A DNA stretch of 64,000 nucleotides, taken from positions 1-64,000 of the forward strand of contig CANGPN010000004.1 of NCBI GenBank assembly GCA_947456305.1, read 5' to 3'. Numbering within the stretch: the stretch's first letter is position 1; each line of letters begins with the position of its first letter. The stretch comes from Comamonadaceae bacterium (GTDB taxonomy: Bacteria > Pseudomonadota > Gammaproteobacteria > Burkholderiales > Burkholderiaceae_C). Under the pieces are notes generated by a model. The model did not search any database, was not told the origin of the DNA, and was given only the letters and a program-made list of their open reading frames with translations. Of this stretch, positions 47,094 to 51,920 are shown piece after piece. A program made the translations under genes and the position numbers.

Positions 47094-48632
47094 TCAGCCC
47101 TGGGCAGCTACGCGCTCCGCTTTGCTTTGCAACTTATTCAAAGCACTCAAATACGCTTTGGCAGATGCCACAACGATATCCGGGTCTGAACCGACACCGT
47201 TGACAATGCGCCCGTTGTTTTGCAAACGCACAGTGACCTCCCCTTGGCTTTCAGTCGAACCGCTGATGGCGTTGACCGAATACAAAACCATTTCTGCGCC
47301 GCTTTGTACGTGCTTCTCAATGGCCTTCAGAGATGCATCTACCGGTCCGTTACCGCCCGATTCGCAAGACACTTCTTTGCCAGCATCGGTGAATACGATA
47401 GCTGCATGAGGTTGCTCACCGGTTTCACTGCGTTGGGAGAGTTTGACAAATGTGAACACATCGCCATCGTGCGACACGCTTTCTTCGCTGACCAACGCAA
47501 GGATGTCTTCATCAAAAATTTCACTCTTGCGATCAGCCAATTCTTTGAATCGTGCGAATGCAGCATTGGTCTCGGCTTCGCTTTCCAACTCCACACCTAA
47601 CTCCTGCAGGCGTTGTTTAAAAGCGTTACGGCCACTTAATTTACCGAGCACGATTTTGTTGGCGCTCCAGCCCACATCTTCGGCACGCATGATTTCATAG
47701 GTGTCGCGGGCTTTCAACACACCATCCTGGTGGATGCCTGAAGCGTGGGCAAAGGCATTTGCGCCAACCACGGCCTTGTTGGGTTGAACCACGAAACCGG
47801 TGGTCTGGCTGACCATGCGACTGGCCGCCAAAATGTGTTGGGTTTCAATACCGAGTGTCAAGCCGAAATAATCCTTGCGGGTTTTGACCGCCATGACAAT
47901 TTCTTCCAGCGAGCAATTACCTGCGCGCTCACCCAAGCCATTGATGGTGCATTCCACCTGACGTGCTCCTCCGATTTGCACACCGGCCAAAGAATTGGCA
48001 ACGGCCATGCCCAAATCATTGTGGCAATGCACAGACCAGATGGCTTTGTCTGAATTCGGGATACGCTCGCGCAAGGTTTTGATGAAGTTACCGTACAACT
48101 CGGGAACAGCGTAACCCACGGTGTCGGGTACGTTGATGGTGGTTGCGCCTTCAGCAATCACCGCTTCAATTACTCTGCATAAAAAATCGACATCGCTGCG
48201 ATAACCGTCTTCCGGACTGAACTCCACGTCTGACACCAGGTTTCTCGCAAAACGCACGGATTGCTTGGCCTGCTCGAACACCTGGTCGGGCGTCATACGC
48301 AATTTCTTTTCCATATGCAAGGCAGATGTCGCGATGAACGTATGAATACGTGAGCGCTTGGCTCCCTTGAGTGCCTCTGCGGCACGTGAAATGTCGCGGT
48401 CGTTGGCGCGCGACAGTGAGCAGACTGTTGATTCGGTGATGGCGTTGGCAATGGCTTTGACCGCTTGAAAATCTCCTTCGGAACTGGCTGCAAAACCAGC
48501 TTCGATCACATCAACCCGTAATCGCTCTAACTGCCTGGCAATGCGCAGTTTTTCGTCCCTTGTCATGGAGGCGCCAGGGGATTGCTCGCCATCCCGCAAA
48601 GTGGTGTCAAAAATTATCAATTGATTGCTCAT
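47094..48632 (-). CDS. leuA: 2-isopropylmalate synthase
   Basis: A 512-residue enzyme that condenses 2-oxoisovalerate with acetyl-CoA, the first step of leucine synthesis. The TIM-barrel starts [18 protein letters not shown] (metal Asp), with [19 protein letters not shown] (metal His residues) and [13 protein letters not shown]; the C-terminal LeuA allosteric domain for leucine feedback is present. AGGAGC lies seven bases before the ATG. Expression is probably set by the attenuator described just upstream. Confidence 0.97.
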
Positions 48633-48677
48633 GATTCAGCTCCTGTGTCATCAACCACCGTCATACCCGTAGCGCAC

Positions 48678-48714
48678 CAAAACAAAAGGCCCGTTGCGGG
48701 TGCATACGGGCCTT
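48678..48714 (-). terminator. Leucine attenuator, 3:4 terminator stem
   Basis: On the minus strand AAGGCCCGT pairs perfectly with ACGGGCCTT (9 bp, 11-base loop) and is followed by TTTTGTTTT, a Rho-independent terminator 46 bases before leuA. Its 5' arm (GGCCCGT) can instead pair with ACGGGCC at 48744-48750 inside the leader peptide gene, giving a 2:3 antiterminator. Confidence 0.85.
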
Positions 48715-48733
48715 GGAAATAATCGCGCAAGCG

Positions 48734-48787
48734 TTACTGTCTGGGCCCGTTGGAGCCTAGTAGCAGTAAGTTGAGCGAGAAGTTCAT
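48734..48787 (-). CDS. leuL: leu operon leader peptide
   Basis: A 17-codon frame encodes MNFSLNLLLLGSNGPRQ, with five Leu codons, four of them in a row (TTA, CTG, CTA, CTA, two being rare types). It precedes a stem-loop pair in which the 2:3 and 3:4 stems exclude each other. By analogy with enteric leu attenuation, a ribosome stalled at the Leu codons would favour the 2:3 stem and leuA transcription. The ribosome binding site is weak. It is too short for usual gene callers. Confidence 0.82.
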   Translation of the reverse strand: MNFSLNLLLLGSNGPRQ

Positions 48788-48802
48788 GGCCAAAATGTAG
48801 CA

Positions 48803-48835
48803 TAAAGAAGAAATTGATCGAGGCATCGATCTTCT
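48803..48835 (-). terminator. Possible terminator after pssA
   Basis: On the minus strand GATCGA pairs with TCGATC across a four-base loop and outer AAGAA/TTCTT bases add to it, followed by a T-rich stretch. It starts at the pssA stop. It may end the ilv-psd-pssA transcript before the leu leader; the T run is broken, so efficiency is uncertain. Confidence 0.45.
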
Positions 48836-49638
48836 TAATGCAAGCCCTTCTCGTCAGGCTCATCAGTGGAGGTGCTGATCACGCTGGTCGGCAAGCCTTT
48901 GGCTTTGCGCCAAGCGTAAACCACGTACCCGCTGAAACCATAAGCCATAAACAAAGAAAAAAGCACGATGGGCGGATGGATATTAATGACCGCAATAGCA
49001 AGCGCAATAGACACTATGACAGCAAAAGGTACGCTTTTACGCATCCGGAAATCTTTGAAACTGTAGAAAGGCACATTGCTGACCATGGTCAAACCGGCGT
49101 ACATGCTGAGCGCAAAAATCAGCCATGCCATATCGCTCTTATTGATATCCAGCACTGTGACCAACCAGACAAATCCCATCACCAAGGCTGCGGCAGCTGG
49201 CGAAGGGAGTCCTTGAAAAAACCGTTTATCCACAACTTCAGTATTTACGTTAAAACGCGCTAAACGCAATGCAGCACATGCGCAATAAACAAAAGCAGCA
49301 AACCATCCCCAGCGGCCCAAATCTTTCAGCGCCCATTCGTAGCTGATTAATGCAGGAGCTGCACCGAATGACACCATGTCTGCCAATGAATCCATTTGGG
49401 CACCAAAAGCAGATTGGGTATTGGTCATGCGGGCCACGCGTCCATCCAAACTGTCAAGCACCATGGCTGCAAATACGCCGATTGCCGAAGCTTCATAGTG
49501 ATTGTTCATGGCCATGACAATGGCGTAAAAACCACCGAACAATGCCGCCAGTGTGAACAGGTTGGGCAATACATAAATGCCCTTGCGCAAACGGCTTGGC
49601 ACTTCTTCGACGGGGTCGCTGGACTCTTGGGGATTCAT
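48835..49638 (-). CDS. pssA: CDP-diacylglycerol--serine O-phosphatidyltransferase
   Basis: A 267-residue membrane enzyme that makes phosphatidylserine. The CDP-alcohol phosphotransferase signature is complete: DGRVAR, then eight residues, G, three residues, D, three residues, D (to MDSLADMVSFG). About seven hydrophobic segments follow LPNLFTLAALFGG. The ATG of MNPQESSDP lies four bases after psd; a longer frame would overlap psd. Psd next to it converts the product to phosphatidylethanolamine. Confidence 0.95.
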   Translation of the reverse strand: MNPQESSDPVEEVPSRLRKGIYVLPNLFTLAALFGGFYAIVMAMNNHYEASAIGVFAAMVLDSLDGRVARMTNTQSAFGAQMDSLADMVSFGAAPALISYEWALKDLGRWGWFAAFVYCACAALRLARFNVNTEVVDKRFFQGLPSPAAAALVMGFVWLVTVLDINKSDMAWLIFALSMYAGLTMVSNVPFYSFKDFRMRKSVPFAVIVSIALAIAVINIHPPIVLFSLFMAYGFSGYVVYAWRKAKGLPTSVISTSTDEPDEKGLH

Positions 49639-49642
49639 GGCA

Positions 49643-50289
49643 TTACAGCGTGGCCAACACTGTGCTTGTGGCAGACACTTTGTCGCCCGGTGCGACGCGG
49701 ACAATCGCTGTCAGAGGCAAATACACATCCACCCGCGAACCGAAGCGTATGAAACCATAACGCTGACCTTTTTCCAAAGCGTCGCCGGGGTGCACATAAC
49801 AAAGAATGCGACGCGCAATCAAACCCGCCACTTGCACCAATGTGACGACTTGGTTTTCGCCATTCATATTCGCATCGATGATGACCGCGTTGCGTTCATT
49901 TTCTGTCGAAGCCTTGTCCAGATCAGCATTGACAAACAAACCGGGAAAGTAATGCACAGCGCGCACACGACCATTGACACTGGAACGGTTGCTGTGAACG
50001 TTAAAAACGTTCATGAATACGCTGACGAGCAAAGCATCGCGGTCAGCGTAGGGATCACGCACTTTTTCAATTTTGACAATGCGGCCGTCCGCAGGGGACA
50101 GCACAGCATTCGCCTCATTAGGTACCGCCCGTGGCGGGTCGCGGAAAAACTGAATGACAAACACCAAAATGATGTAAGCAGGCAATGCAGCCAGCCAGCC
50201 CCACAACAGTGTCAACACCAGGGAAGCAACGGCGGCCAACCCAATAAAGGGCCAGCCTTCGCGCGCCAGCAATGGGTGCGGATAGTTCA

Positions 50290-51827: not shown

Positions 51828-51858
51828 GGTTGTGTAACTCCTCTTTTCGCCGCCCTCC

Positions 51859-51880
51859 CCGCCAAGCGGTAACTTGGCGG
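51859..51880 (-). repeat. Strong GC-rich hairpin in the ilvB-ilvH spacer
   Basis: CCGCCAAG and CTTGGCGG form a perfect 8-bp stem with a six-base loop. No T run follows, so it is not a normal terminator. It probably affects mRNA stability or the ratio of IlvB to IlvH. Confidence 0.6.
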
Positions 51881-51920
51881 CTCGACGGACAATAGATTCG
51901 TCAAATGTGAGTTGAGAAAA

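Follow-up and report, generated by a model that had tools for sequence, protein, structure and literature searches.

A probable leucine attenuator with a predicted leaderless leader peptide is common before leuA in Comamonadaceae

Introduction

In Escherichia coli and Salmonella, leuA heads the leuABCD genes and is preceded by a leader peptide with Leu codons and an attenuator (leuL). How is leuA controlled where it lies behind other genes? The question is raised by a 64,000-nt stretch of DNA, hereafter the window, from a Comamonadaceae bacterium whose genome comprises 2.59 Mb over 52 contigs. On the minus strand of the window, the gene order is ilvB, ilvH, ilvC, psd, pssA and leuA, so that leuA, encoding 2-isopropylmalate synthase (47094..48632; NF002087, 895.5 bits), stands behind an ilv-psd-pssA group and not at the head of leuABCD. 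The last gene of this group, pssA, is listed as an ORF from TTG (48835..49704), and its true start is probably internal. The first-pass annotation of the window had proposed a leucine attenuator in the pssA-leuA gap that sets leuA under leucyl-tRNA control, separately from the genes upstream. Here we analyze this leader and its relatives and find that it very probably controls leuA by ribosome-mediated attenuation of transcription, with charged leucyl-tRNA as the signal sensed.

Results

The pssA-leuA gap holds the parts of a probable leucine attenuator

The leader lies on the minus strand, in the gap between pssA and leuA. Its ORF of 17 residues (MNFSLNLLLLGSNGPRQ, 48734..48787, stop TAA) carries four successive Leu codons, TTA CTG CTA CTA (48758..48769). 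The first-pass annotation had read this ORF as part of a switch between two exclusive stems, one of them a terminator with a T run, and all of these parts are borne out by the letters. Segment 2 (ACGGGCC, 48744..48750), within the end of the leader ORF, is the perfect 7-nt complement of segment 3 (GGCCCGT, 48706..48712), which is just as perfectly complementary to segment 4 (ACGGGCC, 48688..48694). Together, segments 3 and 4 make up the stem of the terminator, and segment 4 is followed by the U-run TTTTGTTTT (48679..48687), the predicted 3' end of the attenuated transcript. Segment 1, absent from that first description, is also present: UUACUG (48764..48769) lies within the Leu codons and is complementary to CAGUAA (48734..48739), which consists of the last sense codon and the stop and with which it can form a protector hairpin.

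The leader therefore combines the features by which leucine attenuators are classically recognized. These are a short ORF with control codons for the amino acid that the pathway produces, an intrinsic terminator (3:4) ahead of the gene to be controlled, an antiterminator (2:3) that excludes the terminator and has segment 2 inside the ORF, seen here by conservation and without column covariation, and a protector hairpin (1:2) that includes the control codons. By its position before leuA, the gene under control would belong to the leucine pathway.

The list of ORFs begins the leader frame at an upstream in-frame ATG (48826), which gives 30 aa. Relatives conserve the 17-residue start and not the 30-aa start, and transcription as predicted below would begin 3' of the ATG at 48826.

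The leader is conserved across the family

We gathered 188 stretches upstream of leuA homologues, made up of the window, 80 named loci and 107 further loci of the same family; leuA matches without a leuA start were left out. This sample is biased to near relatives, and some genomes are counted twice across the two sets. The nearest named relative by LeuA is L032, a Comamonadaceae bacterium whose protein is 95% identical. A homologous GCCCG-type terminator stands directly upstream of leuA in 111 of the 188 stretches. One of these, L065, is cut by a contig end and has no ORF in reach, leaving 110 leaders to be scored. The best small ORF was picked for each leader by a choice that favored Leu-rich and ATG-started frames. 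At least three Leu in a 5-residue window were found in 106 of the 110 leaders, 102 of the 106 being ATG-started, as against only 7.5% when the identical picking was applied to dinucleotide-shuffled sequence. The earlier reading had named relatives that keep the stems but lose the Leu codons as the finding that would speak against it; the Leu run is conserved.

Probable leucine attenuators whose peptide is predicted to be leaderless are thus common before leuA in Comamonadaceae, the leader being found in 78 of the 80 named loci. It stands directly before leuA in 57 of them (L050 and L065, both cut by contig ends, are counted by the terminator alone) and in the other 21 before leuA2, which precedes leuA in a tandem (L105, L071, L096, L068 and L111 are examples). 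leuA2 encodes a longer-type 2-isopropylmalate synthase in L105 and L068 (TIGR00970, 771.7 and 775.3 bits). A covariance model (R1) built from 71 leaders, the window's among them, scores 102.3 bits (E 4.4e-20) at 48677-48810 of the window. The model was run over 48 sources, and in the 21 tandem loci it gave no second match between leuA2 and leuA.

The leader is absent before leuA in the two remaining named loci, L036 and L044, in which leuA directly follows pssA. Among the unmatched genomes listed, G088 (L024), of the same family, has no leader match in its whole genome under stricter filters. These three would be natural losses, whose leucine control could be compared with that of relatives that carry the leader. 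Several of the 107 further loci have only 0.7 to 1.5 kb of upstream sequence, too short for an absence to be informative. At the level of the order, a search with stricter filters (E ≤ 1e-4) matched 15 of 399 genomes, of which 11 belong to the same family and 4 to one genus of another family, and a search of plasmids with the leader gave no match. The leader model matches L200, L202, L203 and L204, from one genus of another Burkholderiales family, and in L203 and L204 the leader stands before a leuA2-like start. By eye, a downstream GCTGGTG in L204 can be seen to complement the loop CACCAGC.

Leader Leu codons are strongly biased to CTA

Across 72 non-redundant leaders, CTA accounts for 150 of 334 Leu codons (45%), compared to 5 of 1291 (0.4%) in the leuA genes available among the same 72. 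The odds ratio is about 210 (Fisher p about 1e-109, with relatedness ignored). In the Salmonella leu leader, replacing CUA control codons by CUG is described as lowering the sensitivity of the attenuator (PMC1183508). Together with the Leu run and with leuA downstream, this bias argues for leucine control of leuA, as first proposed. Besides leucyl-tRNA sensing, CTA codons may in part serve the CTA/TAG pairing of the protector hairpin described below.

A conserved -10 element predicts a leaderless start

Upstream of the leader ORF, the window carries an extended -10 promoter element, TGCTACATT (48794..48802), whose last base lies 6 nt 5' of the leader ATG. A -10-like element is present in 103 of the 110 leaders, 102 of the 103 with an extended TGn, and in 88 of the 103 its last base precedes the leader start codon by 6 or 7 nt. 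When TGnTAnn[TC]T is required at a spacing of 6-7 nt, 74 of 109 leaders match, versus a mean of 0.1 for shuffled upstream sequence and none of 111 leuA starts. No Shine-Dalgarno-like tetramer (AGGA, GGAG, GAGG or AAGG) was found at -16 to -4 in any of the 110 leaders, compared to 101 of the 111 leuA starts. This spacing and the lack of such tetramers lead us to predict a leaderless transcript that starts at the leader ATG; in the window, where the -10 element ends 6 nt before the ATG, +1 would be the A of the ATG itself (48787).

Since a conserved -10 element within the pssA-leuA gap supports a promoter of its own, the proposed control of leuA apart from the ilv-psd-pssA genes is likely, although transcripts may also read through from upstream. 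Just 3' of pssA, at 48816-48831, the window holds a perfect hairpin, GATCGA-TGCC-TCGATC, followed by a T-rich stretch. This hairpin possibly serves as a weak terminator of pssA; a -35 element would be expected close to it.

Conserved pairings of the terminator, antiterminator and protector

The terminator stem (3:4) is paired in 98.9% of alignment cells and includes exchanges between A-U and C-G (37/31) and between G-C and A-U (58/12). Segment 2 has a GGGC core that is nearly invariant among relatives, and its helix with segment 3 (ACGGGC/GCCCGT) is paired in 92% of cells. In 70 of 110 relatives, segment 3 finds a perfect complement of 6 nt or more within the end of the leader ORF; shuffled ORF ends contain one in 8.2%. 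The 2:3 structure is 86% paired, versus 10-51% when slid, and a permutation of its duplex energies gives z = -3.9, a value that none of 2000 permutations attains. A column count detects no covariation in 2:3 (score 0.117 versus 0.115 shuffled, reached by 177 of 500 shuffles), because these pairs hardly vary. Part of the conservation of 2:3 may be due to segment 2 coding for residues of the peptide.

The protector (1:2) consists of a helix between a CTA Leu codon and the TAG stop, plus a GC-rich part around segment 2. Its helices are paired in 84.4% (CTA/TAG), 74% and 70% of cells over 71 leaders, which leaves 16-30% unpaired; UUACUG/CAGUAA is the window's counterpart of the CTA/TAG pairing. 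Taken together, 1:2 and 3:4 show a covariation score of 0.265, against 0.169 in shuffled alignments, with 0 of 500 shuffles reaching it. Pairs with double changes are not in excess in 1:2 and 3:4 (7 versus a shuffle mean of 6.7; 278 of 500 shuffles reach 7).

A plain fold of the 202-nt window leader is moderately unusual (z = -2.07). The leader hairpin was not listed by a simple terminator scan of the window, probably because its loop exceeds the 8 nt allowed. When the window leader is folded up to the U-run, without kinetics, 3:4 forms with P 0.96 and 2:3 with P 0.04. Antitermination is kinetic in known attenuators, and as 3:4 outcompetes 2:3 in this equilibrium fold, it would have to be so here.

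A fifth segment covaries with the terminator loop in relatives

About half of the relatives carry a further segment, segment 5, downstream of the U-run and complementary to the terminator loop. Loop CCCGCAAC is matched by a segment 5 such as GTTGCGGG, loop CCAGCAAC by GTTGCTGG, loop CCTGCAAC by GTTGCAGG or GTTGCGGG, and loop CCAGCGAC by GTCGCTGG. Segment 5 is absent in the window, where GGTGCGCTACGGG stands at this position (48666..48678; p = 0.93), and in L032 (p = 0.43).

In 45 of 106 distinct leaders, the loop matches its own downstream sequence better than dinucleotide-shuffled downstream sequence (p ≤ 0.05). A second scoring, with different shuffles and scores, finds segment 5 significant in 50 of 111 leuA-type and 18 of 21 leuA2-type leaders. 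In a MAFFT alignment of the terminator and downstream sequence (A2, 98 rows), segment 5 falls out of register because its distance varies, and permutation tests were therefore used in place of a column-wise pair count. Swapping the partners of loop and segment 5 among species gives z = -11.4 for all leaders (n = 110), -9.7 for the 79 non-redundant ones, -8.0 for 62 non-consensus loops and -7.7 for 54 distinct loops, and 0 of 2000 permutations reach the observed mean wherever this count was printed; these statistics do not remove all effects of relatedness. Control loops give z = 0.4 when reversed, 0.5 when complemented and -0.9 when reverse-complemented. For leuA2-type leaders, z is -4.9 over 12 loci and -3.7 over 6 distinct loops, these being the subset of the 21 with downstream sequence. 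On the LeuA tree, each of two loop columns underwent 14 or more changes of pair type; since the rows were chosen beforehand as paired, these counts show diversity and are no test of pairing.

Such a partner is not a general property of terminators. Only 1 of 36 other terminators, taken from loci L032-L111 and the window, reaches p ≤ 0.05, which differs from the leaders with Fisher p = 2e-6 (leaders were dinucleotide-shuffled and the other terminators mononucleotide-shuffled). Nor is segment 5, as a rule, part of a second terminator, as at least four T in the next 6 nt are found in only 22 of 68 leaders that have it. A role as a competitor that keeps 2:3 formed is not favored either: in read-through RNA of 47 leaders with segment 5, 3:4 forms with a mean P of 0.90, as computed by folding tools that treat nested structures only and no pseudoknots.

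The loop strand ends at most 1 base from the base just 5' of the terminator GGGC in 62 of the 68 leaders, and the helix would thus overlap little beyond the tip of the terminator stem. Its partner, segment 5, stops 18-47 nt short of the start codon in 62 of the 68 leaders and 51-155 nt short of it in the other six. A helix reaching only to the tip of the stem, together with a terminator stem that is kept in predicted read-through RNA, makes an H-type pseudoknot seem likelier than a competing hairpin. Because polymerase would be past the U-run before segment 5 is made, segment 5 is unlikely to affect termination directly. It would act only after the termination decision, and the candidates are effects on leuA translation or on mRNA decay, or a role as a target for the released leader RNA. 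We thus put forward tentatively, as a reading with somewhat less than an even chance of being right, that the fifth segment pairs with the terminator loop as an H-type pseudoknot in read-through mRNA, as a second layer of control or as a target of the released RNA. The covarying segment 5 suggests that attenuators may include a further base-pairing step after the termination decision.

Discussion

A model for leucine sensing and its alternatives

In the model that we favor, RNA polymerase, using the extended -10 promoter, would begin transcription with the A of the leader ATG, and a ribosome would load on the 5'-AUG without a Shine-Dalgarno sequence and translate the 17-residue peptide behind the polymerase. 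When leucine is plentiful, the ribosome would reach the UAA and cover segment 2, or 1:2 would pair; in either state the 3:4 terminator could form, and transcription would end at the U-run. When leucine is short, the ribosome would stall on UUA CUG CUA CUA and open 1:2, so that 2:3 could pair, no terminator would form and leuA would be transcribed.

The hairpin could be nothing more than the terminator of the upstream ilv-psd-pssA genes, with the small ORF incidental. A hairpin in the pssA-leuA gap would indeed also stop transcripts arriving from upstream, but a plain terminator needs neither a conserved ORF with CTA codons nor a fixed start spacing nor a segment 2, and the leader also precedes leuA2 in 21 named loci; we consider this explanation very unlikely. 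The possibility that the leader belongs to a described family of cis-regulatory RNA, such as a leucine T-box, deserves mention since amino-acid genes are under T-box control in other phyla. The window leader has no Rfam match at the gathering score, and up to E = 5 its one match is to a snoRNA (E 3.4), 3' of the hairpin; the leaders of 10 relatives have no match up to E = 0.1. A known family is accordingly an explanation that we give almost no weight.

It could also be that the leader acts mainly on leuA translation, or as a trans-acting RNA, rather than by termination. If terminated as predicted, the leader RNA would resemble rnTrpL of Sinorhizobium meliloti in being a leaderless mini-mRNA; for rnTrpL a role in trans is described (PMC7298713), and in relatives with segment 5 the loop complements a site that in 62 of 68 lies close before the start codon. 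Yet the window has no such loop complementarity, the terminator stem is nearly invariant, and in cis the loop of the mRNA itself would probably compete with that of a released RNA. Such a main role is highly improbable to our mind, and ribosome-mediated attenuation of leuA transcription remains the reading that we prefer.

Relation to known leaders

Judged from its parts, the window leader would work like the classic leucine attenuator. E. coli leuL follows the 1:2, 2:3 and 3:4 pairing scheme and has a Shine-Dalgarno sequence, whereas the window ORF is predicted to start at +1 without one. The E. coli peptide is described as having 28 aa with 4 Leu (PMC6123439), and the Salmonella leu leader is described as using rare CUA control codons (PMC1183508), as the window's family does. 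The S. meliloti rnTrpL transcript likewise begins at the ATG of its leader ORF (PMC7298713), as is predicted for the window, but it senses Trp and controls trpE(G). In Streptomyces lividans, LeuL1 and LeuL2 are described as leaderless Leu-run peptides upstream of leuA and leuS, LeuL1 (leuA) lacking a typical terminator and LeuL2 having one (PMC8079986); they come from another phylum and are likened to the window leader by description. The actinobacterial LEU element also lies upstream of leuA with an ORF of Leu codons, and is described as having a conserved pseudoknot, with pairing between its Leu run and the Shine-Dalgarno sequence of leuA (PMC1262725). In the leaders studied here, by contrast, it is the terminator loop that would pair, with a segment upstream of the Shine-Dalgarno sequence, and in the window's relatives only.

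Putative leader peptides and terminators are described before branched-chain amino-acid genes in various Gram-negatives (PMC6123439, citing Vitreschak et al. 2004), and that 2004 survey of proteobacterial attenuators may include the leader studied here. By title and abstract, searches of open-access papers, a scope that leaves out most subscription journals, gave no description of this leader. The architecture with segment 5, found outside the window, is possibly a new variant.

Other possible RNA elements in and before the upstream ilv genes

A strong Rfam match to ilvH RNA (RF02993, 84.3 bits) lies at 51835-51902 on the minus strand, between ilvB and ilvH, so that the ilv genes upstream of leuA contain another RNA element, distinct from the leader. 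Upstream of ilvB, from 53814 downwards on the minus strand towards the ilvB start, a small Val/Leu-rich ORF preceded by AAGGAT can be seen by eye and is possibly an ilv leader.
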